Positions 19,956-64,000 of a stretch of DNA of 64,000 bases are shown here, piece by piece. The stretch spans positions 186,001 to 250,000 of the forward strand of contig JAGTXO010000027.1 of assembly GCA_019448385.1 (NCBI GenBank). The letters run 5' to 3'. The position numbers and the translations under genes are program-made. This stretch comes from Diacronema lutheri. Its lineage: Eukaryota; Haptophyta; Pavlovophyceae; Pavlovales; Pavlovaceae. The first letter of the stretch is position 1. Every line of letters starts with the position of its first letter. The notes under the pieces are model-generated. The model worked only from the letters and a program-made list of their open reading frames with translations, had not been told where the DNA came from and ran no database searches.

Positions 19956-20177
19956 GCTCGACGCGCCCCGGCTCGGCGCCGGCGAGGCTCTCTCGCGCGC
20001 GAGCGTCCCTCGCGGGCGTCCGCTGCGCTGCGCCTTGGGTTTGAACGCGGCGAGCGTTTCAGTTTTACTACGTTAAAAGGCCCAAAATTGCCCCTCGCCC
20101 TTCGGCCAACAAGCACGGCTCGGAAACTACCGGCGGGGGGTGGAGGTTCTTGCGAGGGACGCTGTGCGCGCGGGCCG
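19956..20177. promoter_or_regulatory. Divergent promoter region, formin / MAP kinase
   Basis: 222 bp lie between the formin start (-, 19955) and the kinase start (+, 20178). A short AT-richer core near 20,055-20,092 (gtttcagttttactacgtta) stands out against GC-rich flanks and is the best place for a shared initiation region. Confidence 0.45.
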
Positions 20178-28680: not shown

Positions 28681-29683
28681 ATGTCAGGCGCGATCAAGAG
28701 CGAGGCGGTGGGCGTAGCAGCGGGAGTGGCAGCGGGCGCTGCTGTGGGCGCGGCCGCCAGCACGTGCGCGGGCGCGGTGGCCAGCACGGAGGCGGGCGCT
28801 ATGACGGGCGCCGTGGCGGGCGAGGCGGCGGCGAGCGCGGCTGCGGAAGCTGGTGCGGTGGGCGAGACGATGGACGGCGCGCTGGGCGAGGCCGTGGGCG
28901 TGGCGCGCGCCGCGGCGGGCGCGGCGATGGGCGCTGCGGCGGGCCCGGCGGCGGGCGCGGCGACCAGCGCGGCGGCGGTTGGACCAGCAACCATGGCGAG
29001 TTCTTTCGTTGCAAATTGTTTGAGCAAGTTCACTGTCGAGCGCGCCCTCAAGGAGATCGACGTTTTTCTCAGCTACGTGGGTGCGCTACATGCAGCCAAA
29101 CACCCACCGTTTGCGTTTTCGTACGTGCACGTCGTGCGCGCATGTGCGCTCATGCTGCAAGCACGGTCCTCTTCATCAGAATCAGCGCTTCCTGCAACCG
29201 AGGCCAAGCCGATCAAGGATGCGCTCAAGCAGTTCTCCATCGATGCGCTGCGGAGGGCACCGAGATTTTTTTTCGAGAGCGCGCGCAACATGGGACTCGC
29301 AGCTTCAATCCTTCGAGGAGAAGCAACATGGGCAACGGCGCCCTCTCCCTTGCGCACGCTCTTTGTTTTGGCACAGACATTGCAGGCGGCAAGCAGTGAC
29401 GGTGGGGAGCTGCCCGGTGGTGAGATGTTCCCTTTGCTTCCCTCCCGCCCGTGAGGATCGCGCTGATCCCTGCTTGGTGCGTCGTGCCCTGTGCGCCCGC
29501 CCGCCGCCGCTGCACGTAGGTGAGAATGAGATGCGGATGCGAAGGTTGCACGCAGGTATAGGCTCTACAGCGCACAATCTGGAGAGCGCGCGCGCGCAGC
29601 CGCCCGCCAAACGCCAACGCTGCAAGGTCTGTCAGCAGCCAGGGCACAACGCGCGATCCTGTGGCCGCAGGAGGGCGGCTTGA
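28681..29683 (+). CDS. Ala/Gly-rich protein with C-terminal CCHC zinc knuckle, 300 aa
   Basis: Exons 28681-29419 and 29520-29683 join in phase 1 (donor GTGAGA, acceptor cacgtag) to give 300 aa. Residues 1 to about 105 are an Ala/Gly/Val repeat-like region. The middle is globular-looking (MASSFVANCLSKFTVERALK, IDVFLSYVGALHAAKHPPFA). The C terminus carries a zinc knuckle, CKVCQQPGHNARSC, in a basic context (PPAKRQR). Such knuckles bind RNA or single-stranded DNA and occur in host RNA-binding proteins, MULE-type transposases and retroelements. No transposase or polymerase motif is visible here. The stop is 47 bp before the next gene's start on the same strand. Confidence 0.5.
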
Positions 29684-29730
29684 CCCTTCATAGCGTCTCA
29701 CTATTAGCAGTCTTTGTGGCCGGGCTCGCG

Positions 29731-43598: not shown

Positions 43599-43689
43599 AC
43601 CTACCCGTTACGACCGCGTGAGAAGAACGCGTTCGTAATTAGAGAAACAACGCCGCCTTCTCTCCGACACGCGGGGGCCGACATCGAGG
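43599..43689. promoter_or_regulatory. 91-bp divergent promoter between two plastid-protein genes
   Basis: Separates the [2Fe-2S] protein start (-, 43598) from the protochlorophyllide reductase start (+, 43690). Contains a small AT-richer core, gttcgtaattagagaaacaa. Both products have plastid leaders, so a shared light-responsive control is plausible but not shown. Confidence 0.5.
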
Positions 43690-45390
43690 ATGTCCCGCCT
43701 CGCGCTACTGCTCCTGCTCGCGGGCGCTCATGCGGTGGCGGGATTCAAGGGTATGGCGAACTGGAAGGTGCCGACCGTCGGCGACTACATGCGCCGGATG
43801 GAGGCCGAGAAGAAGTTTGGCTCCAAGAAGCTCGTCGTGATCACGGGCACGTCGTCGGGCCTCGGCCGCAAAACGGCGCGCGCGCTGCTGCGCACGGGCA
43901 AATACCACGTGGTCGGCGCGGTACGTGACCTGGAGAAGATGGAGACGATTGCCGAGATCGACGAGTTCGACCCCGCCTCCTTCACGCCTATGCACCTCGA
44001 GCTCAACTCGTTCGAGTCGGTGCGTGCGTTTTGCGACCAGCTGTACGACTTCAAGGGCGCGAAGCACGTCGACCGGCTGATCTGCAACGCGGCGGTGTAC
44101 CAGCCGTCGCTGCCGTACGCCAAGTGGTCGGTCGACGGGCACGAGCAGCAGATGCAGATCAATTACCTCTCCCACTTCCTCATGATCTCGAAGCTGATGC
44201 CCGACCTCGCCAAGGCGCCCGACCCGCGCGTGATCCTCGTCGGCTCCGTCACGGGCAACGACAACACTGTGGGCGGCGGCGGCGTGTACCCGATCGCTGA
44301 CTTGAAGGAGCTCGAGGGCCTCAAGGCCGGCGCGCGCAACCCCGTCTCGATGTTTGACGGTTACAACTTCATCGGCGCAAAGGCGTACAAGGACTCAAAG
44401 CTCTGCCTGATGATGCTCTCGAACACGCTGCACGACAAGTACCACAAGCAGACGGGCATCGCCTTCTCGTCCATCTACCCGGGATGCATCGCCGAGTCGC
44501 CGCTCTTCCGCGAGAAGCGCCCGTGGTTCCGCAAGTACTTCCCCATCTTCATGAAGTACATCACTGGCGGGTTTGTCGGCGAGGAGGAGGCAGGCATGCG
44601 CCTCTTCCAGGTCGCGCACGACCCGCGCTGCTCAAAGTCGGGCGTGTACTGGTCGTGGAACGGCGGGCCGCGCGAGGGGCGCGGCGAGGCCGCGCTCGAG
44701 CAGGACGGCCAGATCCTCGGCGGCGGCGGCGCAGGCGGCGGCTGGGACTCGATCTACGAGAACGACCAATCCGATAAGGTGCTCAACCCGGAGACGGCGC
44801 AGACCCTCTTCAAATACTCGTCGGTCATCACCGGCGCGGAGTGGCCGCCGGCCAACCAGCCAAAGTCGCCGTGCCCGACGCTCAAGCTCGTCGGCGCCAT
44901 GACCTCCATGGCAAACCGGCGCGAGGAGCTCAAGCGCATGCAGCCCGCGCCCGGCATGGTCGGCGGCGGCCTCGCGGTCGGCAAGTCGGCGGTGACCGTC
45001 GCGGACACGATCGTCCTCGGCACCGCCAGCCGCGTCGTCAAGCTCGCGCAGAACCGGCTGCTCGGCGAGCTACCCGTGACCGCGCTGACGGGCTCGCTGC
45101 AGGCCGACGCGCCGAGCGCGCCCAAGCCGCAGCGCAAGGGCCTGCTCCGCCGCCTCCGCCTCCGCCGCGCCGCGCCGGCCGAGCCGACGGCATTGGCGCC
45201 GGCGCCGGCCGCACCTCGCGCGGACGCCACGCCGCACGCGCCCGATGACGCTGCGCCGGCGGCCGCGCCGAGTGACGCGACGGCGGAGGCGGAGGCGGAG
45301 GCGCTCGTGCAGATTGAGTCGCGCATCATGGGCGTGATTGGCGAGTACAACGCGACGTCGGCCGGCCAGCGCGAACGCGTCTCCGCCTGA
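43690..45390 (+). CDS. POR: Light-dependent protochlorophyllide oxidoreductase, C-terminally extended, 566 aa
   Basis: Intronless. Signal peptide at residues 1-18 (LALLLLLAGAHAVAG), cleaved before GFKGM in the manner of secondary-plastid leaders. The reductase core is clear: LVVITGTSSGLGRKTARALL (52-59 cofactor loop), NAAVYQP, GSVTGND, the catalytic pair Tyr233/Lys237 in GAKAYKDSKLCLMML, SIYPGCIAESPLFREKRPWF, FMKYITGGFVGEEEAG and RLFQVAHDPRC. It reduces protochlorophyllide to chlorophyllide with NADPH and light in the plastid. The core ends near residue 420. A tail of about 140 residues follows, with a basic patch (RKGLLRRLRLRRA) and an acidic Ala-rich end. Usual enzymes lack this tail. Confidence 0.95.
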   Translation: MSRLALLLLLAGAHAVAGFKGMANWKVPTVGDYMRRMEAEKKFGSKKLVVITGTSSGLGRKTARALLRTGKYHVVGAVRDLEKMETIAEIDEFDPASFTPMHLELNSFESVRAFCDQLYDFKGAKHVDRLICNAAVYQPSLPYAKWSVDGHEQQMQINYLSHFLMISKLMPDLAKAPDPRVILVGSVTGNDNTVGGGGVYPIADLKELEGLKAGARNPVSMFDGYNFIGAKAYKDSKLCLMMLSNTLHDKYHKQTGIAFSSIYPGCIAESPLFREKRPWFRKYFPIFMKYITGGFVGEEEAGMRLFQVAHDPRCSKSGVYWSWNGGPREGRGEAALEQDGQILGGGGAGGGWDSIYENDQSDKVLNPETAQTLFKYSSVITGAEWPPANQPKSPCPTLKLVGAMTSMANRREELKRMQPAPGMVGGGLAVGKSAVTVADTIVLGTASRVVKLAQNRLLGELPVTALTGSLQADAPSAPKPQRKGLLRRLRLRRAAPAEPTALAPAPAAPRADATPHAPDDAAPAAAPSDATAEAEAEALVQIESRIMGVIGEYNATSAGQRERVSA

Positions 45391-46060
45391 GCCTCGCCCG
45401 CTCCTCGCCGACCGGCGCGCCGACGCCAGCGCGGCCGCCACGGCGGCAGCGGCTGCGGCCGGCCGCTCGAGCAGCCGCGCGCGCGTGCCTCTACTGCCTC
45501 AGCGCGTGGCGTCCCGGTGCCCTCGCCGTGCCGCCACTGCCACTGTCCGACCGACCGACAACAAATCCGCACTCACGCCGCTGGCGCTGTACGCGCCGCG
45601 GCTGCAGTCATGCACATCGTTTCCCACCCCCGGACCTTGCACCGGCATTCGAACCGACGGCCCTCAGGGGGGTTTCCCCCCACTCGGTGGGTTGGTTGTA
45701 GATATTGAAGCGCTGTCGAGTCTTAAGGGCAGTATATAGGGCGCGGTCCGGGCTGGTCCGGCCAGTGTAAGGCTGAGAGTACGACCCGGGTCGTACAATC
45801 AAGGGTTAAAAGCCAGCCAATGAGCGCTCGAGGGGTCGGGGCGAGGCTTATGACGAGCCTAGGACCGAGACACCCTCCTGACCGGCCGATTTGGAGTAGA
45901 ATTCGGGGTCGAGCGGGCGCGGCGGACGGAGGGCCCGAGCCGGGCCGACGGAGGGTCCGACCCCGGAATGCGGGCGACCGGAAGGGCTTGGGTGATTTAC
46001 GCCTAGTAGAATAGAATGGCGGATTCCGGGGGGGCTCGCAACTGGCATCGCGCAAGCTGA
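45391..46060. other. Non-coding stretch with palindrome and possible tRNA-like segment
   Basis: Downstream of the reductase. Codon-like structure stops and composition falls. A perfect 18-bp palindrome lies at 45779-45796 (gtacgacccgggtcgtac), and a TATA-like agtatatagg at 45,731. On the minus strand an A-box-like accgagtgggg and a B-box-like ggttcgaatgcc (about 45,646-45,690) are spaced roughly as in pol III genes. The arms do not fold into a full tRNA. This may be a SINE head or chance. Confidence 0.35.
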
Positions 46061-46349
46061 GGCCCCCTGACTGACCGGACCGCGCCGAGTGCGCGTGCAC
46101 CCCGTGGAGGGCGCGGCCAGTCGGACACTCTTCGCGACTGAGCTCGCCGCGGCATACCGTGCGCTGCGCCGGCGCGCTACTTGCCGTTGGCCGAGCTGCG
46201 GGTGTTGCGCACCGCCGTGTTGCGCAGCCAGCGGCTGGATGCGCCGGTGGCCGGAACCTTGGCGCGCTTTGGCTAAGCGACCTCGGCCTGCACAGACTCG
46301 AACGCGTGCGTAAACTCGAGGCGTTGCAGGTGGCGAGCACGTGAGTTCG

Positions 46350-46450
46350 CGTAGGAGGTCTTGTACTCGGTGGCCTGACTGTCGACCGACGAGAGCTTGG
46401 GCGAGTTCGGCGGCACGTTGGCTCACTTGGGCTCGGTGCGCGGCTCTGCC

Positions 46451-46483
<33 letters not shown>

Positions 46484-47430
46484 CTTCGGACTCGCTGCCC
46501 GGCTCTGCCTGTGCGGGCGCGATGCACTCGGACTCGATGCCCGGCTCTGCCTTCGTGGGCGCGGTCGCGGGCACGGGCGCGCCCTCGACCCCGTCGCGGT
46601 TGAAGACATCGAACTCGACGCACACGCCGTGGTCCTTGAAGTCGGTGGCCTCGCTGTCGTTCGCGTAAGCCTCGGGCGAACTCGCAACGAGCGACGACAT
46701 CTCGGCGTGGAGCCAGCACATCTCATGCTGCACCGCGTGTTCAGGTTCTCGAGCGCTCCGTTGAAAGAGTCACTCTCACCGAGGCGCTCGCTGCATTACA
46801 CCAGATAGCCATCGAGCTTGTGAGCGTGCTCGTGCGCCCGTGCGAGGTCCTTGGAGAGCGCGTCGGCGCGCGCGCACATGCCGTCGCATGACTTGGCCGG
46901 TGTCATGCTGTGCTTCCAAGGCCTGGTGCTCGGCGTTGAGCGTGTCGTGATCCTCGCGAACGAGCTGCAACCAGCTGCAGCAGCCGCGCGACGCCGCTGT
47001 CGCCGACGATGCGCTGGAGCATGTGGCCCATGAGGTGTGCGCGGCACGTGGCGAGCGCCACATTTTTGCGCAGCAGCGCGAGGATCCGGGCGCCGCGGAC
47101 GAGCCGGCCCATGCACTTGAGCGCGTAGATTCGGCCGCACATGCACGCGCCGACGACCGAGTCGGCGGGCCCGCCGTCGAGCCAAAAGTTGGCCTCGGCC
47201 GCATCGCGGCGGCGGGCGACGCGCTGAAGGATGCGCACGCGGTAGTGCCGGTCGACGAGCAGCTCGTCGCCGAAGATCTCGTCGGGCAGCAGCTCGGAGA
47301 CGTTCTGGGGGTACATGCTGTGCGAGCGTGCACGCGACGAGATCTCGTCGGGCGTGCCGTCCGTTCGTTCAGAGCAGAGCGCGTCGGACCGGCAGACAGA
47401 CGATGCAGCGCGCGAAGGCACCTGCGGCGC
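46350..47430 (-). pseudogene. Broken coding region, unknown family
   Basis: Protein-like segments on the minus strand fall in successive different frames: ELLPDEIFGDELLVDRHYRV, MGRLVRGARILALLRKNVAL, REDHDTLNAEHQALEAQHD, ARADALSKDLARAHEHAHKL, and WLHAEMSSLVASSPEAYAND with an acidic Pro-rich end (AEPGIESE, AEPGSESE). Only some of the frame changes could be introns, since good splice sites are lacking, so I read this as a decayed gene with several breaks. The later part is coiled-coil in character. Family and origin are unknown. Confidence 0.4.
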
Positions 47431-47734
47431 GCGGCGTGGCCTCGCGTGCCGTCACGAAGCCGCCTGCGCGCACTGCGGAGGCGGCGAGCGCGACGAGGGC
47501 GGGCGCGGACGAGGTGCTGAGCGGCGTCACGTACGCGCCCTCGCTCGCCGAGCTCGACGCCGCGGCGCTGACGATGCGCGCGGCGTACCACACCGACCGC
47601 CCCTGAGACGATGCGCGGCGCCCGCGGAGGACTGGTCCGTTGGCGCGCAAACCGTGGGCGAAAGGGCGCGAAGCCAACGGCCGTCCGCGCACGTTCAAAC
47701 GCGCGCATACGGGTGGCATCCTCCCACCTTCGGC

Positions 47735-48047
47735 GCCGCTTTCCAAAAGGGTGTAGGGTGTAGGGTGTAGGATGCAAAACAAGCCCTCCCCACATTTGGG
47801 CCCGACGTCATTCCTTCTTCGAAGCCGTGACGTTACTCACATACGAGTACCTTTACTTAGTGTAGGATGGATCTATTCTCTAAGTATTTGCATAGTGTAG
47901 GGTGTAGGATACGTACGGTTATGAAAGTCCCATAGGGGGGAGAAGGAATGACGCTGTGACGAAAGAAGGAATGACGTCGGGCCCAAATGTGGGGAGGGCT
48001 TGGTTTGCATCCTACACCCTACACCCTACACCCTTTTAGAAAGCGGC
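47735..48047. mobile_element. MITE-like element with about 80-100-bp terminal inverted repeats
   Basis: Left arm about 47,735-47,824 and right arm about 47,960-48,047 are near-identical reverse complements. They begin gccgctttc(c/t)aaaa, run through three tandem gggtgta units into ggatgca, then agccctccccacatttgggc and gacgtcattccttctt. I see about one mismatch in the central 70 bp. The core of about 130 bp is AT-richer with extra gtgtagg copies and has no ORF. The terminal gggtgta repeats and lack of coding point to a non-autonomous DNA transposon, recently inserted. A target duplication is not clear (perhaps ggc). Confidence 0.75.
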
Positions 48048-48182
48048 GGCGCCTCGGAGCATGGCGGCTCGACAGCATGGCGCCTCGACAGCATGGCGTC
48101 GTCCAGCGTCACGCCGCGTCGTGGTCCTGCCGCTCCTCCGTGGCGCACGGATGGCGCTCCTCCGTGACGCAGCCGAACGACG

Positions 48183-50294
48183 CCGCGGCGTCACGGCCCG
48201 GGCGCAGTCGCCATCCTGGACGCCACGGATGGCGAACCGGTCGACGAGATCCGGCACGAGGACGTCTGCGCCATCGCCACGCAGCTCGACTGCGTCTACA
48301 CGGGGCTCACGGGCTCGATGTTTGGCACCAAGTGGAACGTGTGCGGGGTCATGCTCCCGAAGCGCGCCGAGCAGCGGCCGCAGCCCGGCTCGGACGCCTT
48401 CGCCTCGTACAGCGTGGCCGCCTGGGCCGACACGTTCGACTCCACGGGGCTGTACGTGCCCGACGAGCGCGAGCGCGCGGCGGCGCTCGCGGCGGTGGCC
48501 GGTCTGCGCACGGCGCGCGCGCCGGCCGGGCCGGGCGGGCGCGAGCTCGCGCGCGCGCAGGGCTACGATCGCGCCGAGCAGGCTGCGAGCGCGGCGGCGG
48601 CGCGCGCGGCGATGGCCGAGACCGGCCAGCAGCGCGCGCTCCACGGCGCGGTCGTCGACTCGGCGCTGCGCGGCGTGGGCGACCGGCTGCACTTTTGCGA
48701 CGCGCCGGGCGGCACGGGCAAGACGTTCGTCGAGCGCGCCATCATCGCCGCCGTGCGCGCGGATGGGCACGCGGTCGTCGTGTGCGCGTCCTCGGGCGTC
48801 GCCGCCACGCTGCTGCCCGACGGCCGCACCTTCCACTCGACCTTCAAGGTGCCCGTCGGCGCCGACTCGGACGGGCAAGCCGTTCAATGGCGTGCCGCGC
48901 TCCGAGCGCGGGCGCTCCGTGGCCGCCGCGGCGAATGATCGTGGGGGACGAGGCGCCGATGCAGAAGCGGGGCCGCCTCGACTCGCTCGATCGGTGTTTG
49001 CGCGACGTGACGGGCGTCGACGAGCGCTTCGGCGGCAAGACGTTGCTGCTCGCCGGCGACTTTTGCCAGTGCTTGCCGGTGGTGCGGCGCGGCTCGCGCG
49101 CGCAGATCGTGCGCTCCTGCCTCGAGTACTCGGCATCGTGGCAGCACGATCGGCCGTACGCCTTGGTCGAGAACTCTCGCGCCTCGAACGCGGCGCGCGA
49201 CACGGGCGACGCGCTCGGCGCGGGCGAGTGGGCGAAGCTGCCGCGCAGCCTCGGCGACGGCGCCTTTCCCGCGGCGGTGCCGCCTGCGGGGGCCATGCCC
49301 GGCGCATTCCCGCTCGATCCCGTGCAGCTGCCCGAGGCGTCTCGGCCTACCCGGCGGAGCTCGTAGCCACTCGCCTCCTCTCGCTCGGCGAGGGGCTGTG
49401 CAGCGGCACGCGGCTGGTCGTGCGCGGCGTGCGCGCCGGCGGCCGGCTGCTCGAGTGCGCGCGCCCCGGCGCGGCCGCCGGGCGCGACAGCACCGTGCTC
49501 ATCGCGCGCATCGACCACCACTCGCCCGACGAGGGCACGTTCGCGTTTGCATGGCTGCACCGCCAGTTCCCGGTGCGGCCGGCGTAACAAGGCGCAGGGT
49601 CAAGCGCTCGGGTGCGCGGGCGTGTGGCTCGCCGAGCCGTGCTTCACGCACGGCCAGCTCTACGTGGCCGCTTCGCGCGTCGGGCACGCGTCGCGCATCC
49701 GCTTTGCGCTTGGCCCGGACCATGTGACGCGCACCGTCGTCTTCCAAGAGGTGCTCCGCGCGGTCAGCGGTGGCGAGGCGGCGGCGGCGGCGGCGGCATT
49801 CGCCGCGGCCGCCGTCGCCGCCGCGCGCGAATGCGCGGCGGCGGCGCGCGGTGGCGGCGGGCGCGGCGGGCGCGGCTCGGACGGCGCGCGCGGCGCCGGC
49901 GGCGGGCGGCGCGCTGGCGGCGGGCGCGACGCCGGCGCGCGGTGCTGCCCAGCACCCGCCGGCGCGACGCCCGTCGCGCCGCTCGCGGCCGACACGCAGC
50001 CGGCGGGTGCTCGCCAACACCGCGCGCCGCGCGACTGGCCCGCGTACCTGCGCGCCCTTCTAGGGCGCGCAGGGCGGCGCCAATGCGGCCGGCAAGCAGG
50101 GGCCTCAAGCCGGCGCGCTGCCCGACGCCGCGTGGGTCGCCGCCGCGCGCGTGCCGTCGGCGCTGCCGCCGTCCGGCGTCGCGCTCGCGCCGCTGCCGCA
50201 ACCTCAGCCGCCGCCGCCGCCGCCGCCTGCCGGCAAGCAGGGCAAGCGCGCAGCGGCGGCGACGGCGGTGCGCGGCCCGGCGAGCAAGCGGTAG
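48183..50294 (+). CDS. PIF1-like DNA helicase, damaged
   Basis: Recognisable helicase blocks lie in order: FCDAPGGTGKTFVERAIIAA (Walker A), AVVVCASSGVAATLLPDGRT, FHSTFKVP, MIVGDEAPMQKR (Walker B), GKTLLLAGDFCQCLPVVRRG, SRAQIVRSCLEYSASW, TRLLSLGEGLCSGTRLVVRG, and the final NKAQGQALGCAGVWLAEPCF then THGQLYVAASRVGHASRIRF. This is the PIF1 family as found in host PIF1 and in Helitron-type and other elements. The blocks fall in more than one frame; introns may explain some changes but at least two look like real breaks. The C-terminal tail is Ala/Gly- and Pro-rich, with stop at about 50,294. No Rep-type HUH motif was found upstream, so Helitron membership is unproven. Confidence 0.65.
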
Positions 50295-51686
50295 CGGTGC
50301 CGCCGAGCCGGGGGCGGGCTCCGTGGGCGACGCGGCTTGGCCCGCCACTCGCACCACTCGCGCCGGGCGCGCACAACGCGCCGTGGTCCGCTGCGTGGCC
50401 GAGCGAAAATGCGGTCCTGGCACGCCATGCGGGAGAGGCCGTACAGCGCGTGAGCTTGGGCCCGTGATTTATTACTCATGGATTTATTACTCATGCCATG
50501 GCGTCGCGCCACGATTACGCCCGTGGCCCCGGCCGCCAGCCTCGCGCCGCTACGCCGTGTCGTCGCGGCCGGCGCACACAGCGAACTGTGTGTCCGCGGC
50601 ACATGCCCGGCTGCTCGCGAGCTGCAAGCTTGCCGAACTGCTCGCGCTAAAATGGCGCGTTGCGGGCGTGCCCGCGCACCGCGCGTATGTTCCGCGCGTT
50701 CCAGGCGCGCCGCGCCGCGCGCCGAAGCGGCGCGCGGCGCACGTGCGGCCGCGAGCCGAAGAGGGGCCGGCGCGACCGGCCGCGAGGCAGACGCAGACGC
50801 TCGGCGTGCCGGTCGACGCGTCGTCCAAATCCGCGTCGGGCGGATGCGCGCCTAGGCCGGCGCTGCGTGCAATCGGCGCGGGTCGCCGCCGCATGACGAA
50901 GCATGCTTCCATCCGGTGCTCGGCCACGCGCTCGGGCGTAACGTTCGCGCCTGTTCGGCCGAGGCGCACTCGCCGTCCCCTCGCGCCGGCAATGCGCGTG
51001 CGTGCCAGCACGCCGGCAGCGGAGGATGCCACGGCAGCGGCGAGCGGGTCCCCGCCGGTGTGCCGCTCGGCGCCCCGTCACGCGCAACGCGCGCGCCGCC
51101 CGCTGAACGCGCACAATTGCCTGGGCAAGATCGTCCCGCGCTCACGCCGCCGTCGCATCGTTCCATGCATGGCGCCCGGCTCGTCCGTACCGCTTTCGGG
51201 CAGTGCCGCGACGCCCTTTTTCAAAGGCGGGTGCCGCGCTGATTCGTCATCGGCCACCATCCATCTGGCCCTCTAAAGCCGGTTTGCGCGTGGGCGCCCG
51301 TCCGGTGCGAGAAGCGGCTCGCGTCCTCGCGCGGGGCGCCTCCGCGCCAGGCGCCCGGCGCGCGCTCGTCTTGCCGCGCCACCACGCTGATCTGCGCCCA
51401 ACCCTCGCTCGCCTATTCCCCCGTCGTTTCTGCTGCGTAGCCCGCAACAGCGCGCGCATGACGCGTGCACGGCGCAGCGCCTGGAGCAACTTCCGAGTCG
51501 TCGGCCGGCAGCCTGTGGGGGGCGCGTTCATCGGCCCGATGTGGCCGGTGAGAGTGCCCGACGTGCCGCGTGGTGAGCGCCTGCACGGCTCGCCGGGTTC
51601 GGCGCGTTCCCAGTCGGCCTCTCTCCGACCCGCCGTAAACCTTGCGTGCGCACCCCGCACACCCGGCGCTGCGCGGCGCGGCGCAG
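50295..51686. other. Gap of 1.4 kb before the giant gene
   Basis: No domain is recognisable. The opening 200 bp has a duplicated tgatttattactcatg (about 50,465-50,498). The stretch likely holds the promoter and perhaps an unplaced first exon of the giant gene. The protease frame is open back to about 51,203, with ATGs at 51,458 and 51,539, so an intronless start is also possible. Confidence 0.4.
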
Positions 51687-54600
51687 GCGTGAAAAACGAG
51701 GGCAACGCGTGCTACGTGAACGCCCTCGCGCAATCGCTCGTCGCCTTGAACGTGCTCCGTCCGATGCCCCGCTCCGCTTCGCGCCGTGCGGGAAGAGTCG
51801 AGAAGGCGCTTTTTCGGGACTTTGGCACGCTGCTCGAGGACACCGAGGCGCCGGCACAGCTGTGTCTTGTGTCCGTCGTCGACGTCATCTTGGGCCGTGG
51901 CACGCGAGGGACGCAGCAGGACGCTGCTGAGTTCTTCCAGATGCTACTCGGCCGAGTGCCCGGGCTCGCTGCTGCCTTCGAAGACGACAGACGCGTAGTG
52001 CTCGAGCCGATCGCTGTGGCCTCGAGCGAGCGCGGTGAGGGCATCGCCATCCTCGTCAGCATTGGCGGCGATGCGGCGCGCACGCTCGCACACGCTCTGG
52101 GGGGCGTCGCTGGGCCGCCGCAGGGTGGCAGCCCGGACGCGTGCCGCTCGGACGTGCTCATGCCAGCCAGCATTGCCGTCGAGGTGCCGCGCACGACGCG
52201 CGGCAATGGCTCGCAGTGCAAGAACAAGCACGCGTTCGTGTGCGCGCCGCGGCTGCTACTCGGCGGGCGCGACTACCTCCTCGTCGCCGCCGTCGTGCAC
52301 TTGGGCGAGGAGTCGACGAGCGGGCACCTTGTCGCCATCGTGCTCCGCAACGGGGCTTGGTTTCTGTGCGACGACGACAACGTGCGGCGGCGCGCACGGC
52401 CGCTTGGCGCCGCGACCGGCGGTTGATCGCAGCCGCAGCCGCCCCGTCCTCCCGCGCGGCACGCGCGCGTGGCCTGAAAGCTCGCGCCGCGCGCCTGCCG
52501 CACGCACGCGCGTTGCCCGCGCAGATGCACAACTTGTCTCAGTCCGACGCGCTGGCGTGGGCAAGTGGTGCGAGCATGCTCTTCTACAGCCGGCTCGACG
52601 CGGAACCGTTGGACCCGGCGCTGGGCTCAGCGTCACCGCCGTCGGCCGCATCGCCTGCGTGGCCGAGCTCGGCGCCCGACGCGCCGACCCTGTCGGCAGC
52701 CTGGTCGCGGGTGCGGCAGATGGCAGCGGTGCCAACAGATGCGACGATCGGCATCGCGGAGACGGCTGCAGACACCTCTGCGGCGGCGATCGGCCCAGCT
52801 GCGTGCGAGGCCCGCCAAGTTGTCTCCGCGACGCGCGCATTGCCAATGGCGGTGAGTGCCTCGCACGCGCACGCCGTCCGCTGTCCACAGCGTGGCGCCC
52901 GGCGCTTGCGTTCGCGCCAGGTAAAGTTTGCGCGTATAGCGTGCAGCACCCTCACGCATCCCCTACGCCTCCCGCCCGCCCGACCTCTTGCCCGCCGGCC
53001 GCGCGCAGGACCAGCGCACGCCAATTGTTGGGCGCGGCCAAATCTGGGCATGCGCAAATTTTGAGCCGGCAGCGGAGGGCGGGGATGCGCAGCACAACTG
53101 GCGCAAGCGCACGTGGTGCCCGCAGCACGAGCAGCGCGAGCAGCGCGAGCAGCGCGAGCAGCGCGAGCAGCGCGAGCAGCGCGAGCAGCGCGAGCAGCGC
53201 GAGCAGCGCGTGCAGCGCGTGCAGCGCGAGCAGCGCGAGCAGCGCGAGCAGCCCTGGCAGCCAGCGCGGCCAGGCCTCGGCGCGGGCGCTGGCGTTCGGC
53301 CCGCTGCTCTGCCGCCGAGCCATCCGCGCGCCAGCATGCGCGCGAGCAACCGCTTCGAGCCGCTCTTGTTGGCCGAGGCGGACGTGCCCGCCACCGAGCC
53401 CGCCGCCGCCCAGCCCGCCGCCCAGCCCGCCGCCGAGCCCGCCGCCAAGCCAGCCGCTGCCAAGCCCACCGCCGAGCCCGCCGCCCAGTCCACGGCCCAG
53501 CCTCCCACCGTGCCTGACGCCAAGCCAGCCGACCAGCCCGCCGTCAAATGCGCTGCCGCCAAGCGCGCTGACGACCGCATTGCTGCCGCTGAGGTAGGCG
53601 CCGTCGCCGCCACGCTTGCCGCCGCCACCGAGCCTGGCGGCGTTGCCGAGCTCGCCGCCGCCGCCGACGAGGGCTGCAGGGCGCGTGCCGACGCGCTCGC
53701 CAAGCGCGAGACCCGCCGCGCGCTCCACCGCGAGCAGCTTTTTCGCGAGGACAAGCGCGCGGCCGGCCGCCTGATCGAGCAGTGCGCGCTGGGCTCTGCG
53801 GACGATGCAGCGCGCGCGCGCGCCCTGCTCGAGCGCGTCAAGGCGCGTGGCCACGCGCTGCCTCCGCACCTGCTGCGGTCGCTGCGCGACCTCGCGTCGC
53901 CGCGGCTCGCGCTCGCCGCTGAGGCGGCGGGCGTGCTCGCCGCGTCCGAGATGGGCGAGGCGGACGCACCTGCGGAGGCGCGCGCGCTACTCATGCACGC
54001 CGAGGCCGTGGGCGCCCACCTGCCCGCGCACACAGAGCTCGCGCTGCGCCGCGCCTGCATCCCCACCGCCGAGCAGGCGGAGCTGCTCGCGACTGCGCGC
54101 GAGCTGCTCGCGCCGCGCGACCCCGAAGGCTCGGTGGCTCCGGCGGGCGCGCGTGCCGAGTGCGACGGCGCCGCGCTCGGCACTCGCGCGCGCGAGCTCC
54201 TCTCGCGACTCGACGAGGCGCACCTCGACGTGCAGCCCTGCATTGCGCGGCAACTGCGCCGGCTCGCCGCCACCGAGCCAGACGCAAGTTCGAGCGCTGC
54301 GCTCGCCGCCACGCCCGGCACCGCCGGTCGCGCGGCCGCCGAGCCGCGGCGCGCGTGGCGCCCGCGCGGGTGGCGTCTCGCGGTAGGCGCAAAGGGTGCG
54401 CGCGCGCGCGCGCGCGCCGCGGCTGCTCCGCTCGACACGGCGCCGCCCGCGGCGGCCGGCGCCGTCCCGCCGCTCGAGCCGCAGCCCGAGCGCCGTGCAG
54501 CCGACGCCGCGGCCGCCGCAGCGGCGCCGGCGGCCGGCGACGACGGCGTGGCACGCGCGCTCGCAGCCGCAGCGCGCGGCGACGGCCTCGACGGCGTCGA

Positions 54601-56301
54601 TGGCGCCGACGACCTCGTTTGCGCGCCGTGCGACCGAGGCTGCGCGCACGCACGCGACGGCGGCTGCTGCGAGCCTGCCGCGCGCAGCTCGCCCGACCAG
54701 TGCCCGCGCGCACCGCCGCGGCGCGCACGGCGGGCGGCAAAGCGCGCGCGCGACCGGCTGCGGAGATCAATCGACAGGTCAGAGCGGGCTGTCGGCCGCC
54801 GATTGCGTGGCGGCGACGCGCGCCGCGAGCGCAAGCGCAGGTGCGCGACGGGCGGCCAGCACGCACCGCAGCCGCTCCGCCGCGCGAGTCGCAGCCCGCC
54901 GTCGCGCACCGATCGGCCCTCGGCCGAGCATGCCGCCGAGCCTGCCGCCGAGCCCGACAGCCCCCACCGCCGCCCGTGTGCCGGTGCCGCCGTCGCCGTC
55001 GCCACTGTCCGGTGCGCCGTCGGCATCTTCGCGAGTGTCGTCGCCGCCTCTGCCGTCCGGGCCGCCATTGCTCCGGCCGCTCGCCCGTCTGCAGCCACCG
55101 CCTTTTGGCTCGTCGCCGTGTGCTCGGCCGCCGCATGGGCCGCCTTCGCCTCCGCCGCCCGCCCGACCGCCGCCTTGGCCGCGCCGCAGCCTGCCACGCA
55201 ATCGTCGGCCGCCGAGCCCACCGCCGCCGCGCCAGCCCCCGCCCAGCCCGCCGCTGCCGAGCCAGCCGCTGCCCAGCCCGCCGCGGCCGAGCCCGCCGTG
55301 GCGCAGCGCGACGTCCAGTCCGCCGCCCCGGCGCTGCTCGCGTGGGCGGGCGACGCGGCTGCGCTCCGGCTGGCCGATGCCGCCGCGCGCGCCGGCATCC
55401 CGCAGGCAGAGGTGGACTGCATTGCGGGCGGCGACATGCTCGCCTCCACTGTGGACGCTTGCTGCGAGGTCGTGCTGCGCGTGCACGGGCAGGCCGGCGA
55501 AGGGCGCGTCTGCCACGTACCGCTTGCCGCTCAGCCCGCGGTGTTCCAGGACGGCGCCGAGCGCGCCGCGCTGCTGCACCGCCTGCACAGCGAGGCGACG
55601 ACGCAGGCGGTCATCGGCATGTGGAGCCCGCCGGGCGGGCGCGGCGGTGCGGGCAGTGACGATGGCACGCCGCCCGCCTCCGGCCATTTCACCGCGTTGC
55701 GCCTCGTGCGCGTCGCGCGCGCGGGCGAGCATCGCTACGACGCGGTGCTTGTCGACACGCTCGCGTCGCCGAGCAGGCAGGCGCTCAAGCGTGCCAGGTC
55801 GATAACCGCCACGCTGCACGCGGCGGGCCTCGACGTCTTGCCCGTGCGCCGCGCGCGGCTGCTCGACAACGCGGCGCAGCGTGGCGCGACGTGCGGCCTC
55901 GCCGTGGTGGGCGCGCTCAACGACGCCGCGCTCGCTGCGGCGGGCGGTGCATCCGCGCCGCGCACGTTCAGCGTGGCGGACATGTACGCTGTTGGCGAGC
56001 ACCTCCGCGTCGCGTTGACTGGCGCGGTCAGCGGGCGTGCGCCGAGCGGCGCCTGCGCCGGGGCGGGCGCGGTGCGCGGCGGGGGCAGCCGCGATCGCGC
56101 TGCCGAAGCGCCGCGGCAGACGCGCGGCGCCAAGGCCGCCGCAGACGCCGCCGCCGCTGCCGCCGTTCCGCCGCCGCCGCCACCTCCGCCGCCCGCGCTG
56201 GGCGCCGCCGCCGCCACCACCACCGCCGCTGCCGCTGCTGCCGCCGCCGTGGCCGCGCCGCCACCGCCGCCACCGCCGCCGCGTGCCGGCGACGAGGGCG
56301 A

Positions 56302-56347
<46 letters not shown>

Positions 56348-59300
56348 GCGCGCACGTTCTTGAAGCTCGCGCCCAGGGCGCGCGCGGCCGCCTCGGCGCG
56401 TGAGGCGTTGCGCGCCGCGTGTGCGCGCGCGGACGCGGCGGCGTCGTCACACGCGTCGGCGCCGCACGCGCCCGCCGGTGCGCGCCGCCGGCGGCGCGCG
56501 GGCGCAGGCGAGCTGGCGCTCGCGGCTGCGCGCGCGCTCGCCTCGACGGAGCACGGCGATTTGACGGACGACGCGCTCGAGGCCGCCGTCGAGCAGGAGC
56601 TGGGCGACGAGCGCGGCCAACTGCTGCTGTGCACGCGGGGCGCAGCGGCGCAAAGGCCCGCGCTTTGCCGGCTCCTGAAGCACGCGTGCGCGTCGGCGCG
56701 CGCGGCGAAGCGCGCGCAATTCACGGTGTTCGTCGTGCGCGCGGCCACGCGCGGCGAGCGGGGGGGCGCCGCCGCGAGGCGCGTGGACTCGGTGGTCGAG
56801 CTGTCGTGCGCGCTGCACGAAAAGGCGGGCGCGCTCGGCGGCCTCCAGAGCGTCTGTGTGCGTGGCTTCGCCCTCGAGCGCCGCCGGACACTCGACGGTG
56901 GCGCCGAGGCCGGCGCGTCCGCCATCGGCCAGGACGAGCAGGTCGAGGCAGAGGCGGGCGAGGCGTGCGTCGCCGGCGTGACGATGGCCAAGCAGCTGCG
57001 TCAGTTTGCCGAGCAAGCTGCCCGCGACGACGTGCTCTTCCGCGTCGCCGTGTCCGAGGCCGACGCCCACGCCCGGCTGGCGCGCGTTGCGGGTGACGAT
57101 GTCGGCGCGTACAGCGTCGTGCTCGCAGTCGCCGGGCTCGTCTGGCTGGCCAAGGCCGACGAGGTTGCGCCGGCGGCCGCCCGGTCCGCCGCCGCGCCGC
57201 CCGCCGCCCCGCCTGCTGCCGCCACGTCCGCCGACGCCGAGCGCGACGCCTCGCCTTCCGACCGCCTGCGCGCGCTGACGCTCGCCGTGCGAGTCGCGCT
57301 CGCGCGCGGCGTGCTGCGCCACCTCCTCGCCGACGCGTCGCCGGGCGCGTCCGCGACCGCTGGCGGTAGTTGCGCGACGCCCGTCGAGGCGGCCACGTCC
57401 GCCGCCGCGCCGCCCGCCACGGGCGTCGTGACGAGTGGCGTCGCGGCGGGCGCTGTGGCGGCCGCACCGGCTGCTGCGGGCGGTGCGACGGCGGGTGCAT
57501 CGCCCATCACGCGGCCGGCGAAGCGCGCGCGGCGCACGCTCACCGCCGCTCCAGCCGCCTCGGCCGTTGCGGCCGCTGGAGGCGCACGCGCGGGCGCACG
57601 CGGCGCGGCCGGCGCGCCTCGCGCGCGCGCCGCGCGCGCGCCGGCCGAGTACGTCTGGCTTGCCATCGCGCGCCGGATGCTGGCGGCGCGACACGCGGCG
57701 GCCGCGGGCGGCGACTTTGTCGCGTCGTGCGTCGCCGCGATGCAGGCCGAGTACGGCGACGGCTGTGCCGTCGTCGTCGGCGACGCGCCTGATGACGCCT
57801 TGGTCGAGGCTGCGGCGGCGGCGCTGCTCGAGGGCAAGCACGCGGCGGTGAGCCTCGGCTGCGTCGACCGGCCGGCGGTGCTCGTCGTGCAGCGCGCCGT
57901 GGACGCGCCCACGTCGCGCGTGCACGGGTGGTGCGCGCACGCGGCGGGCGCCGCCGAGTTTGACGAGGGCGCCGCGCACGGCGTGTTCAACGCGATCGTC
58001 GAGCGCGCGTGGGCGCTGCGTCCGGACCCGGCTGACGGCAGCCCGCCGCCCACGCGCACGTGGGAGGTCGAGCAAATCGCTGGCGACGCGCCCGACCAGG
58101 CGGGCGTGGCCGCGCTGCGCGTGCTCTACGCGCTCGTCGCGGCGCACGGCCGCTACCGCTCGGCCGCCGCGCTCTTTGGCGCGCTCGCGCAGCTGCACGC
58201 GCCCGACGCCGCCGGCGCGCGCGCGGAGGTCGTCGCGGCGGCGTGCGCGGTGCCGCACGGCGCGCGGCCGGGCGCCGCGCCGGCGGCCGCGCGGGACGAC
58301 GCGAGGGAGCGCGCATGGGAGGGCGCTCAGATCGCCGCGCTCGCCGTCGGCGCGGACGCTGCGCGCAGGCGTGTCGCGCCCGTGCGCGCGCTCGTCGACG
58401 CGCTCGGCACGCCACCGACCTCGGCGATCACGGGCGGGCCGGCGGTCCGGCTCGCGGGCGCGGGCGACGGCGGCCACGGTGCACGGTGGGTGGGCGGGCA
58501 GGCGGCGACGCCCGCCGAGCAGCTGCCGAGGGAGCTGCTGCGCGCCTACCACGAGGCGGTGCTGTGCGTCACGCCCGGCAGCCTCCAGCTCGGCCCGGCG
58601 GCGCTCGACGCGGTCACGCGGCCGCGCGAAAACGACACGCTGGAAGGCCTCCTCGCGCGCGTCAGCTGGCAGTGCGGCGCGAGGGCGAGCACGTGCGCCA
58701 TGCTCGCCACGTTTTCCGAGCAGGCGGGCACCGGCTCGCGCGTCGCGCTCAAGGCCCTCCGCACGAGCTCCGACCTGGCCGGGCTGACGGCGGCTGCGGT
58801 CGGGCAGCAGGCGCCGCAGACGCCGCCGCCGCCGCTGCTCGTGATGCTCGGCCGCTGCCCCAGCCCGCTCGTCGGCGGCGGCCTCTTCCCGCCCGACCGC
58901 GCGACGGGCGAGCCGGCGGTGCACGCGGCGACGTCCGAGCTCGCCGTCGAGCTGCTGCGCGACGCGCGCGCGCTGGCCGGCACGGACGGGCGGCTCGTCG
59001 TGCTGTGCCTCGAGGCGTCCAACCCGCTCTGGTTCTGCCCCAAGGTGCGCGAGCTCGAGCTGCCGCGGACGCGGTCGGACGGCGTGCGCGCGTCCGGCTG
59101 CACCTGCCCTGCGACGTGCAGCGATGCGCGCGGCGCGGCGGGTGGCGCTGCCCGCGGCGCATCGACGCGGCCGGCGGCGCGCGCGATCAACAAGGCGGTG
59201 CTCGACCACTTCGTCGCGCTTTTCGGCCGCGAGGGCTTCGCGACCTTTGAGTTTGCGGGCGGCGGCGAGGCGAGCTGGCTGTGCGACAGCGCGGCCGGCA

Positions 59301-62300
59301 AGACGACCGTCGCGGCGTGCGCGTCGCTCCCGCCGCGCATGGGCGATGGGCAGCTGGCCATCCGGCGGCACACGCTCGGCACGGGCGCCGACGCGCCGGC
59401 GCACGCCGTCGTCTCGCTCCGCGTCGCGCACGTGAGCCACGCCATCCGCCGCGCGGCGGACGACGGCGGCGCGCGCGCCGAGCGGATGGCGCGCGCCGCG
59501 CGCGCGTTTTGCGATGTGGCGGCCGCGCTGCGCGTCGACGCGATCCTGGCGGAGGTGCCCGAGGACCGCCCGACGGGCACGCCCTTCCTTGGCGGGCTGC
59601 TCGAGTTTTGGAACAAACGCCACGGGAGCTCGACGGCGCCAGCCACGCTCGCGCTCGGAGACGTGCGCGAGGTGGCCAAGCGGACGGCCGACGCAGCGGC
59701 CGGCCGAGCGGACGAGGTCCCTGCGGCTGGCCGTCCGCAGGTCGCGGCGCGCGCGTGCGCTGGCGCGATTGGCGGCGGCGCGGGCGCGGCGGGCGCCTCG
59801 GACGCTGCGCCCCGTGCACTGGCGGGCGCGTCGGGTGCGCGCACGGACGGCGGCCCTGCCGACGCACCGCGCCAGCTGGAGAGCCGCTACGGCGAGGCGA
59901 GCAAGCTCGACCTACCCCAAGATTCCACTACGGGCTGCGTCCTCGACGCTCGCGAGGCCCAGGACCGCGCGCGCGTGCCTGCTGCGCCCGACGGCACAGC
60001 GCTGCGCCGCGTGCTCGACGCCGTCGGCGCGGGCGCGCCCGCGCAGCGCAGCCCGCGCTGGCACGACGAGCGATGGGAGGAGGTCACGGGCAGCAAGGTT
60101 GGCGACGTCGTGAACGACAACGCCGGCGTCGCGCACGAGACGCTCACCGACGAGTACGTGCACCGGCGGCGGCGCGAGGTGCGGACCAAGGCGACGACCG
60201 CGGGCATCCTCGGCGAGGCCGTCGCGCTGCGCAAGCTGGCGGCCGCGTACGGCATCACCGTCGTGTGCAACCTGCCGATGGTGCGTGCGGACCCGCACGA
60301 CAAGAGCGCGCCGTTCGCCTTCTCGCCGGACGGGCTCGCCATCCTCCCCGAAGACAACGAGCAGGTCCTCGTCGAGGTGAAGACGCTCACCAAGGCGGAC
60401 GCCAAGGCGCACGAGGACGGGCCGCCGCAGCCGCACCGCGATCAGCTGCAGCTCGGCATGCACGTCCTCGGCGTGCGCAAAGCGCTCTACGTGCAGTACC
60501 TCAGGCACGAGGACCGGATCGTCGTGCACGTCGTGACGCGCGGCGTCGGCTGGCTTGCATTCGCGCAGCCGAGGGTGCAGGCCTTCTGGGCGCGCGTCGT
60601 CGAGCGGCGCGCGCGGCTCGAGCGCGCGCGCGCCGACCACCCGGCTGCGAGCCGGCGGCACCGGCGGCAGCAGACGCCGGCCGGGCCGCCGCTCGTGCTC
60701 GCGCTGGACGGGCGCATCCCCGCCGCGCGCGCCGCCGCGCTGCACGCCGTCGCGCACGGCACCGCGAGCGCGGCGGCGGTGACGGCGGCGGCGGCGACGG
60801 GCGACGCGACGGCGTTGCAAGACGCGATCGCGGCGCTGCGCGCGCCCGTCGGCAATGCGGCGATCGACAGCGCAGCGCGTGCGGAGGGCGCGGCCGTCGA
60901 GCGGGCGATCGCGTACCTCGGGCAGCCGGCGGGCGACGCCGCCGCCCGCGGCACGGCCGAGGCGGCCGAGGAGGAGAGGACGGTCGACGCCGACATCTGC
61001 GCGTTGCTGCACCAGCTCGGCGCGAGCGTGGCGCACGTGCACGTCGAGGACGCGGATTGCGTCACGCGTGAGCACTGGGGCGAGGCGGTGCTCGCTGCAG
61101 CGGACGACCCGTCGAGCGCCCCCGCCATTTCGAGCGTCATCGTCGCGCACATCGTGCGCCTCGCCGGCTTTGGCGTCGAGCTCCCGCAGTCGATTCGCGT
61201 CGCCCCCAGCACGGCCGACTGGCACGAGGGCTGGCTCGACGTGCAGTGCGTGCTGCTGCGCACGCGCCGGCGCGGGCGGCGCGACGACGACTTTGTGGCC
61301 GTCGTCAGGCGCGGTGGGCGCTGGTTTGCGTGCGAGCCCGGCCGCGCGCGGCGGCTGCAGTGGCGGTCGGTCCTACGCCGCGCGCGCGGCGGCGTCGACG
61401 GGACCGGCGAGGAGGCGTTCGCGATCGTCTACGTGCGGCGCGGCGACGCGGCCGGCGACGCGGCTGGCGACGCGCAGGCCGCACGGGCGCGCGGCGGGCG
61501 CGCGCGCAGGCGCACGCGCGGCGGCACGCGCAAGCGCAAGCGCGGCGCCTCCGCCGGGCTCGAGGCGGCCGCGCCCGCCGGCGCGCCGGCTGCCGCGCCC
61601 GCCGGCGCGCCGGCGGGCGCTGCTCACCGCCCGCCCGCCATGCGCGCCACGGTCGCCGCGCGCACCACGCGCTCTGTGACCGACGCGCTGCACTCGGCGC
61701 CTGCCGCCACGGTTGCACCTGTCTTCGACTGGCGCGCCGGCCGCCCGCCCCCCGCCGCTCGAGCCCGCCACCCGCGGCCGCGTGGGCGCGCGCCACCGGG
61801 CAAGGCCTGGGACAGCGTCTCGGGTGCGTGGGCGGACAAGCCGACTGGTGCTGCCGTCGCCGCCGCGCCGCCGCCGCTGCCGCCCGCCGCCGCGCCGCCG
61901 CCCGCCGCCGCGCCGCCGCCCGCCGTCGCGCCGCCGCCCGCCGCCGCGCCGCCGCCCGCCGCCGCGCCGCCGCCGCCGCCGCCACCGGCGGCGCTCGGCC
62001 GCCGGCAGCACGTCGGCGCGGGCGGCAGCGCGGCGGGCCGGCGGCTCGCGGCCATCGCACGGCGGCAGCGCGGCGTGCGCGCGCCGCCGCCCGCCGCGCG
62101 CTTCCTCGCCACGCTGCCGCCACCGCCACGCGACGGCCTCGCGCGCACGAGCAAGCAGGCGCGCGCGAGGCGCAACGCGGACGGACGGCCGGCGCACGCG
62201 CGCGCGGCCAACGCGCGCGCCTTCTACCGCGGCGTGGAGCTCGGCGTGCACGCGACGCGCGCCATCGTCGACGCGCGCCACGCCGACCTGCCGCAGGCCG

Positions 62301-64000
62301 TCTTCGTGGCGGAGGCGCGGGCGATCGTCGCGCGCTCCGCCGGCGGCGGCGCGCTGCTCGCGCCGGACGACGTGCGCGACCTGTGCGACGCGCAGACGGA
62401 CGCCGATCGCGCTGCGATCTGGGCGTCGGTGGGCGCGCACGAGGCGACGCGCATCTTCGCGCTCGTCACGCGCAACGCGAGCTTGGCGGGCGCGGCGCTG
62501 CTCGTGCTGCACACGCCGGCGGGCGCGCCGGCGCGCGCGCTCGGGCTCCTGGCGACGCGCTCGCGCGCGCCGTCGACGGGCGCGCCGCGCGACGCGCACA
62601 GGGCGCTGGTGCAGCGGTTGGACGTGCTGATGGACGCGATCGCCGCGGCGCGAGGCGCGTCGCCGCTCGAGCTCGAGCTCGCGCTCGCGCCCGAGCCGCA
62701 GAGCGCGTGCAACGCGCGTGCGGCCGCGCTGCTCTGCCTGCAGGCCGTCGCGGACGCGAGCGGCCGTCCCGCCGCTGAGGACGCGCTGGCCGCGCTCGAC
62801 GACGCGCGCGGCATCGACCGGCACTGCCACGCCGTCCGGCAGCAGATCGAGGCGAAGCTCGCGTGGCGGCGCGCCGACGGCGCCGTCGGCGTTGACGGCG
62901 CCGACGGCGCGCCCGCGCTCGCGCCTGCCGCCGCACCGCCGGCGTGCGCGCCGGCGCACGCTGCCGGCGAGGCGGCGGTCGACCAGGCGATCGTCACGCG
63001 GGTGCGCGACGCGCTGCGCGCGTGGGCGACGACTGGCACCGCGCCCAGCGCGGCGGTGCTCGACGACGCCTGCGCCGCGTACACGGCCCGCGCACGCGCG
63101 CGCAAGGACGCGCGCACGGCGCTGGGCCCGACGCGCGCGGCCGAGCTGCTCGCCGCGGCCGCGCGCGGCGGAGCCGACGGGGCGGATGCCGCGCGCGCGC
63201 TGCTCGGCGGCACGCCGCGCCTGCTCGTCGTGCTCCTCTGCGTGCCCGTCGCCGCGCCGTCCGGCGAGCCGCCGCGCCCGGTCGGGCTGCTCGTCGCCGA
63301 CCGGCCGACGGACGACTCGCGCCCGGCCGCGCTCGTGCGCTACGACTTTGCGCCGCTCGACGCGGACGTGGCCGTCGCGGTCGGCGCGCATGCCGTCGCG
63401 CTGGCCAGTGCGATCTGGCCGCTGCTCGCGGCCGAGGGGGAGCCGCGGCCATCGCCCGTCGTGCGCTCGCAGCCGCGCGGCGGCGACGATGGCGCGCGTG
63501 CGCTCGCAACGTTCGCGTGCCTCGACGCGCTGATGACCGCCAGCGTCGGCGCGCACGGCCTCGCGGGCGGCGCGGGCATGCTGCCCGCGCTGGTCGCGCG
63601 AGGCGCCGCGGCCGCCCAGCGCGAGCGGCAGCTGCGCGCGGCCGCCGAGAGGCTGGGCGGCACGGTCGCTGGGTGGCCGGACACGGGCGCGAGCGCGGCG
63701 GGCGCGAGCGTCGACGAGGAGGCGCGCACGTACGAGGTCGAGGCGGTCGTCGACGAGCGCCGCAAGGCGGGCAAGAAGGTGACGTTCCAGTTCCGGATCA
63801 GGTGGCGGGGCTACGACGAGAGCGCCGACACGTGGGAGCCTGAGGCCAACGTGAGCAGCGACCTCGTCGCCCAGTTCCGCAAGACGCGCGACGAGCAGAA
63901 GCGGCGCGCGGGCGTATCGGGCAGCGGCAGCGGCGGCGCGGGCGCGGCGTCGGCATTGGCGTCGGCGCCGCTTCGCGCGCACGGCGAGTCGGGCGCCGCG
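51687..64000 (+). CDS. Giant multidomain protein: USP protease, Ulp1-like protease, YqaJ-like nuclease, chromodomain; 3' end outside window
   Basis: Exons 51687-52381, 52525-52851 and 53009 to the window edge join in phase (donors GTGCGG and GTGAGTGCC, acceptors gcgcag). The last exon has no stop in 3,664 codons. In order: C19 ubiquitin protease (Cys at 51,710 in KNEGNACYVNALAQSL, TQQDAAEFFQML, His at 52,325 in TSGHLVAIVLRNGAWFLCDD, ASMLFYSR). Then an EQR repeat and an Ala/Pro linker; a Ulp1-like protease (His 55,685, Asp 55,754, Gln 55,877, Cys 55,892); a degenerate Ulp1-like block (about 57,640-58,160); a YqaJ-like nuclease (about 60,060-60,610); a USP-like block lacking His (about 61,200-61,450); and a chromodomain (63,728-63,880). 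The first exon is unplaced. The role is unknown; mobile or virus-like origin is possible. Confidence 0.75.
53129..53264 (+). repeat. 9-bp coding repeat (Glu-Gln-Arg)n
   Basis: About 15 copies of gagcagcgc (two with gtgcagcgc) inside the giant gene, encoding an EQR repeat likely to form a charged helix between the USP domain and the Ala/Pro-rich linker. The frame is kept because the unit is a multiple of three. Confidence 0.85.
61880..61985 (+). repeat. 15-bp coding repeat (Ala-Ala-Pro-Pro-Pro)n
   Basis: Five or more copies of a ccgcccgccgccgcg unit within the giant gene give a rigid PPPAA linker between the USP-like block and the C-terminal region with the chromodomain. Confidence 0.8.

Follow-up and report, generated by a model that had tools for sequence, protein, structure and literature searches.

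Gene content of the locus

The stretch of DNA analysed here, called the window, comprises 64,000 nucleotides of the haptophyte Diacronema lutheri (contig 14, 186,001–250,000, in an assembly of 43.49 Mb and 103 contigs). It was found that the window locus is one copy of a family of giant mobile elements rather than a host gene, the in-window part lying at 45,733–64,000 on the plus strand. The whole element is 21,564 bases long, and its right end was placed at position 253,296 of the contig (G000:C14:253296), 3,296 bases beyond the window end. As reference, a 31-kb copy of the same family on contig 29 (177,479–208,551) was read whole. Features below are on the plus strand unless stated otherwise.

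The frame at 51,107–52,423 encodes a deubiquitinase of the ubiquitin-specific protease (USP) type, with its core at 51,686–52,423. The Cys and QQD boxes of a USP core, reported in a preliminary description of this DNA made from the sequence alone, were located at 51,686–51,952 and the His-box region at 52,232–52,390. The Pfam UCH score was 55.7 bits (cut-off 23.9), and the closest PDB chain was USP46 (E = 4e-6); the corresponding frame of the 31-kb copy scored 33.5 bits. Downstream, the long open frame of that description was confirmed at 52,940–64,000, where it runs through 3,687 in-window codons and stays open to a likely splice donor 346 codons beyond the window. Under a simple composition model, the probability of so many codons without a stop was ∼4e-16, and the other five frames contained 7–31 stops; the giant frame is no chance product of high G+C. 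The longest frame had 4,089–4,518 codons in all six copies read. No protein relatives of the giant frame were found among the ∼8,000 candidates scored by common words, which is weak evidence because low-complexity words may have filled the candidate set.

Near the in-window end of the giant frame, at 63,731–63,883, a chromodomain of the HP1/CDY type was identified as previously proposed (Pfam Chromo, E = 4e-12), with CDY1, CDYL and HP1 as PDB matches and CDY1 as the closest chain (E = 5e-10). A YqaJ/RecE-like exonuclease domain was likewise confirmed, at about 60,059–60,466. As an isolated segment it scored 22.6 bits in Pfam (cut-off 22), and PHROG 434, a RecE-like exonuclease, matched the giant frame of the 31-kb copy with 58.5 bits; but in the context of the whole frame the Pfam score was 16.1 bits, below the cut-off, and the NCBIfam lambda-exonuclease family TIGR03033 gave 33.1 bits, below its cut-off of 68. 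No meaningful match of this domain was found among PDB sequences. For the proposed Ulp1-type C48 protease, a His/Asp/Gln-Cys pattern was seen by eye at 55,334–56,119. The segment had no matches in Pfam or among PDB sequences, and 55,334–56,041 had none in NCBIfam; its AlphaFold2 model was poor (predicted local distance difference test, pLDDT, 47.9) and unusable for judging the fold. When segments of the giant frame were scanned singly against Pfam, most showed no recognisable domain. The proposed profile searches thus returned C19, chromodomain and, in isolation, YqaJ, but not C48.

The USP and giant frames, for which an in-phase splice had been suggested, do share one phase, and the interval separating them contains stops at 52,424, 52,475, 52,853, 52,922 and 52,937; the splice is thus far putative. 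In the 31-kb copy the order was helicase gene, USP frame, a frame of 1,345 codons, giant frame of 4,518 codons and Fanzor frame, and the USP and giant frames were 7 kb apart with the 1,345-codon frame between them. Because the USP occupies a separate frame and another frame intervenes in the 31-kb copy, the earlier proposal that all four domains belong to one protein was not supported. That these two frames stand close together in the window is a property of the 21.5-kb class of copies, and therefore need not mirror the ancestral gene order. The 1,345-codon frame (L033:1925-5959) gave no profile matches and no notable PDB match; by eye, it shows a Ulp1-like pattern N-terminally and a nuclease-like pattern later.

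At the left of the USP frame, pieces of a PIF1-type helicase were found in two frames at 48,168–49,363 (Pfam PIF1, 68.8 and 83.2 bits), truncated compared with the 31-kb copy. In the latter, the helicase consists of an unidentified N-terminal extension, PIF1 and Pif1_2B (Pfam, 48.7 bits), whereas Pif1_2B had no matches in the window frames scanned. The extension was missing in all five copies of the 21.5-kb class that were read, the window copy included. In the adjacent frame at 49,367–50,464, inspection by eye suggested a helicase-like motif near the C terminus, a weak assignment with no Pfam match. A minus-strand open frame at 46,903–47,451, also with no Pfam match, lies in the well-conserved left 2.4 kb and could be an element gene.

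A Fanzor-like exon beyond the window

Past the window end, the giant frame continues for 346 codons to a GT donor, followed by a predicted 128-base intron ending in AG and an exon of 574 codons, which ends 405 bases short of the right end of the element. The same two stretches are linked in the D. lutheri gene model KFE25_006464 (P0003). In this apparent chimera, a SAM-domain protein is attached to the last part of the giant frame plus the beginning of the 574-codon exon; capture of a piece of the transposon by a host gene is one possible origin.

The exon is predicted to encode a divergent Fanzor (TnpB-family) nuclease. It matched the Pfam TnpB/Cas12f-like domain PF07282 with 28.4 bits (cut-off 26.3), and the NCBIfam model guided_TnpB with 14 bits, far under the cut-off of 100. 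A relocated RuvC2 glutamate, described as characteristic of Fanzors in the source of the motif criteria (PMC10711439), was assigned in the near-identical protein P0002 to E353, with a gap of 6 to the first zinc-finger cysteine, C360. The motifs CPAC and RDYNAARN were also present. The gap between the zinc finger and the RuvC3 D was 9, compared with 4–8 in the pattern given there (PMC10711439). Besides P0002, two relatives emerged from the ∼8,000 candidates scored per search, a gene model of D. lutheri and a fragment of metagenomic origin. The AlphaFold2 model was poor (pLDDT 38.6) and unfit for a fold search.

Ends, copies and genome share

The left end, at 45,733–45,767, begins with TATATA, which a single C or G separates from a constant 28-mer. 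Allowing at most one mismatch, the left-end 28-mer had 219 genome matches and a right-end 23-mer had 215, and the reversed controls had none. A related left-end pattern, with T seven positions ahead of the constant part, had 190 exact matches; among the 100 of these that were listed, TATATA was followed by C in 49, G in 40, T in 2 and A in 1, and 8 had other forms. The 28 bases preceding the right tip occurred at 213 places, 190 of which had TATAC at the tip; among the remaining 23, at least three sit at contig starts. In 11 copies read at both ends, flanks were unrelated and ends precise (one, on contig 3, stops at the contig end one base beyond the element right end), and no target duplication beyond the common TATA was seen. 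In 10 of the 11, C or G stood directly before the left TATA and A or T before that, which hints at an insertion rule, although the pattern was noticed post hoc.

Between the window copy and the 31-kb copy the ends were the most conserved parts, with 2370 of 2376 positions identical at the left and 405 of 405 at the right. A hairpin scan revealed a perfect 18-bp palindrome at 45,779–45,796, starting at element base 47, whose function is presumed, and hairpins close to the right end. A search of the right end against Rfam returned no matches.

The repeated nature of the locus was evident in a genome search for the USP family, which gave 103 places, many of them sharing one 439-codon frame and an equal score. 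Alignment to copies on contigs 4, 17, 5 and 27 gave identities to the window copy of 99.4%, 99.96%, 99.6% and 99.3%, respectively. In the copy on contig 4, identity drops to 96.0% over a stretch of 527 bases, and there is a small gap close to the left end. All four alignments stop at one and the same base on the right, and the left end was common to the copies except on contig 5, where the copy begins ∼95 bases inside. Such near-identical copies suggest that the family has been recently active.

Exact end matches listed on contigs 1–44 were paired when correctly oriented and within 45 kb. A partner right end was found for 68 of 94 left ends, using 66 of the 99 listed right ends, and 56 of the 66 placed pairs fell into four size bands: 21.4–21.7 kb (12), 26.0–26.6 kb (6), 29.1–29.5 kb (9) and 30.9–31.1 kb (29). 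The placed pairs totalled 1.85 Mb, which when scaled by 213/99 right ends gave ∼4.0 Mb or 9% of the assembly, an estimate in which 26 of 94 left ends are unpaired and nested copies are not separated. The genome paper of strain NIVA-4/92 reported 43.503 Mb in 103 contigs, 73.25% G+C and 22.9% repeats, the annotated ones being mostly long terminal repeat and long interspersed nuclear elements; the word stem 'transpos' is absent from its main text (PMC8379373).

Compared with the 31-kb copy, the window copy is without the N-terminus of the helicase and some of the second helicase frame. A stretch of 10.3 kb in the 31-kb copy is replaced by 2.4 kb of private sequence in the window copy, a net difference of 8 kb, and the helicase/USP part is 90–96% identical. 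The size classes look like mosaics. The ratio of nonsynonymous to synonymous substitution rates (dN/dS), calculated from this single pair of copies, was 0.61 for the common giant frame and 0.40–1.11 for blocks of 500 codons, the aligned frame extending ∼157 codons beyond the likely splice donor.

Several observations were made beside the elements. A short repeat ending in GTTAG and followed by T/A-rich sequence was seen at L031:6540-6690 and L010:677-760 and in L036, L042 and L044; in L031 it appeared by eye to have a 12-bp target duplication, and three giant elements directly adjoin a GTTAG repeat. As a candidate empty site the short repeat is an ambiguous case, its own boundary being T/A-rich. 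Host genes adjoin the window element at 11,467–45,387, namely a CAP59-type mannosyltransferase (11,467–13,629), a formin (15,951–20,072), a Fer4_20/FAD oxidoreductase (24,021–26,012) and short-chain dehydrogenases (29,530–32,127 and 43,639–45,387).

Nature of the element and alternative explanations

The identification as a mobile element follows from the precise ends, the unrelated flanks, the 219 and 215 end matches and the size classes. The preliminary description had offered two readings, a self-processing polyprotein of a very large transposable or virus-like element and a chromatin-targeted host enzyme. The very large transposable element was borne out by the ends, flanks and copies, and the genome-wide search for copies and their flanks that it had suggested yielded the matches given above; self-processing is unsupported because the C48 protease was unconfirmed. 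The host enzyme found no support at a locus that proved to be a repeated mobile element. Overall, that account was confirmed in part; it had missed that the locus is repeated, as well as the helicase and, just outside the window, the Fanzor exon.

We read the element as an unclassified giant transposon. Its nearest analogues are the Helitron2 elements bearing Fanzor1, e.g. Chlamydomonas CRe-1,2,3. As described for those elements, it is an algal transposon with a Fanzor, hairpin-forming ends and, in the full element, a PIF1-type helicase; its 5' end starts with T, and full-length ends show no target duplication (PMC3627910). Unlike in Helitron2 as described there, a Rep (HUH) domain was unrecognised, the length is 21–31 kb, the insertion rule is not TTTT, and the Fanzor is read through from the giant frame with chromodomain and exonuclease. 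A classical Helitron was considered and rejected, since a helicase is present yet no Rep (HUH) domain was recognised in ∼200 copies. The unclassified Fanzor elements MCi-2, MCi-5 and CMe-1A similarly have a Fanzor, no transposase class and several to many copies, but MCi-2 and CMe-1A are a few kb long and their description mentions no USP, exonuclease or chromodomain (PMC3627910). The giant KDZ and EnSpm transposons of Ectocarpus resemble the element in being >10 kb and up to >30 kb, in taking a sizeable genome share and in carrying extra genes, but they fall in named groups, and the word Fanzor is absent from the main text of their report (PMC12477816). No such element was found in the open-licence PMC literature searched, nor did the domain combination or the apparent chromodomain–Fanzor fusion turn up in it; Fanzors in unclassified transposons and giant algal transposons are already known.

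We lean somewhat towards an explanation in which the giant element is copied as a single strand and the Fanzor restores the donor site. A 31-kb form would supply the proteins. The helicase, perhaps together with the exonuclease, would peel off one strand, which would be copied into a new site with no target-site duplication. The Fanzor, with an RNA guide from the constant right end, would cut the emptied site, whose repair restores the element; the possibility that Fanzors promote transposons with single-stranded DNA intermediates has been raised (PMC10432273). Tethering of the complex to chromatin bearing methyl marks would fall to the chromodomain, and the USP would shield element proteins from being removed in a ubiquitin-dependent way. 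An enzyme for strand transfer may be hidden, unrecognised, in the giant frame.

A number of observations weigh against this single-strand explanation. The frames scanned, which did not include every short one, contained no recognisable transposase of a known type, and Helitron_like_N had a single match genome-wide (contig 63) compared with ∼200 element ends. No head-to-tail copy junction was found within 30 bases. RNA folding of the right end gave z = –1.1 for the last 150 bases and z = –0.2 for the last 100, with z = –2.4 for the preceding 150 bases and z = –2.5 for the left 150. The best asymmetric inverted repeat of the Helitron2 type (9/10) was equalled in 40 of 500 shuffles, and the best inverted-repeat scores at lengths 8, 12 and 15 in 297, 267 and 80 of 500, respectively. 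As for the Fanzor exon, RuvC1 reads DPN, not DPG, both in P0002 and in the window element (the metagenomic relative P0004, 40% identical across 51% of the query, has DPG), the first zinc-finger CxxC is broken, and the sole PDB sequence match was Cas12f1 with E = 0.38. The dN/dS values were 1.26 (Fanzor), 1.06 and 1.50 (helicase pieces) and 1.15 (USP), so that this one pair of copies does not show constraint on these three genes, a pattern to be expected were many copies moved in trans.

Among other mechanisms, an element with a Crypton-like tyrosine recombinase, in which a circle integrates at a TATA-like core and leaves a TATA(C) direct repeat at both ends, appears unlikely. It would account for the TATA close to both ends, with the left core mostly followed by C or G, for TATAC at 190 of 213 right ends and for the lack of a longer target duplication in the 11 copies; Cryptons are likewise described as having short terminal direct repeats and no target duplication (PMC3627910), but a tyrosine recombinase was unrecognised in the D. 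lutheri element. The right core is not constant, as 23 of 213 deviate or meet contig ends. None of 16 genome-wide Phage_integrase matches lies inside a placeable element copy, the match on contig 92 aside, and the Pfam scans showed no integrase, although a very divergent recombinase could escape them. Two tyrosine-recombinase matches (G000:C17:194914-195378 and C69:95472-95945) were noted outside element copies, at a distance of a few kb upstream of the left end, and may be there by chance. We give still less weight to a cut-and-paste transposon of the DDE type, with a transposase concealed in the giant frame and diverged beyond recognition. The giant-frame segments with no recognisable domain would leave room for it, and an imperfect inverted TATA-type motif occurs at both ends (at the best offset, 7 of the 12 outermost bases agree), but the target-site duplication is absent in the 11 copies.

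Integration of a virus, or of a virus-like element, that carried genes for recombination and a polyprotein is improbable. The RecE-like exonuclease, the helicase and the giant frame are compatible with viral origin, but the Pfam scans revealed no capsid, polymerase or packaging domain and no relatives appeared in the IMG/VR scans. A host gene, segmental duplication or assembly artefact is scarcely credible: a dozen contig ends meet the element 3' end, but identical ends stand beside unrelated flanks at internal sites, with 219 and 215 end matches in the genome, and a host gene in particular was ruled out by the copy number and the precise ends. A telomeric element was rejected as well, since such contig ends exist, yet TTAGGG telomere arrays are present at other contig ends.

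The contig ends that meet an outward-pointing element 3' end are those of C1, C3, C5, C6, C10, C12, C14, C26, C29, C80, C83 and C91. The fit is exact or within one base on C1, C12, C3 and C14 and within a few bases on C5, C6 and C10, and on C26, C29, C80, C83 and C91 it was deduced from left ends ∼31 kb inside. A 5'-outward contig end was seen in one case only (C32) among the matches listed. These contig ends may be assembly breaks, though with a bias in orientation.

Returning to the single-strand explanation, a bolder form of it can be put forward tentatively, as a real possibility that we nevertheless think less likely than not. The element would represent a new superfamily of giant eukaryotic transposons, in which one polypeptide comprises an RNA-guided Fanzor, a reader of histone marks and a RecE-like exonuclease, chromatin state and guide RNA jointly determine the sites at which copies are restored or gained, and an unrecognised strand-transfer enzyme resides in the giant protein. 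An RNA-guided nuclease would be physically tied to a chromatin reader within a mobile element. The family, of which no description was found, seems to occupy roughly a tenth of the D. lutheri genome. The missing transposase poses a concrete question, and the near-identical copies make strains of the alga directly comparable.

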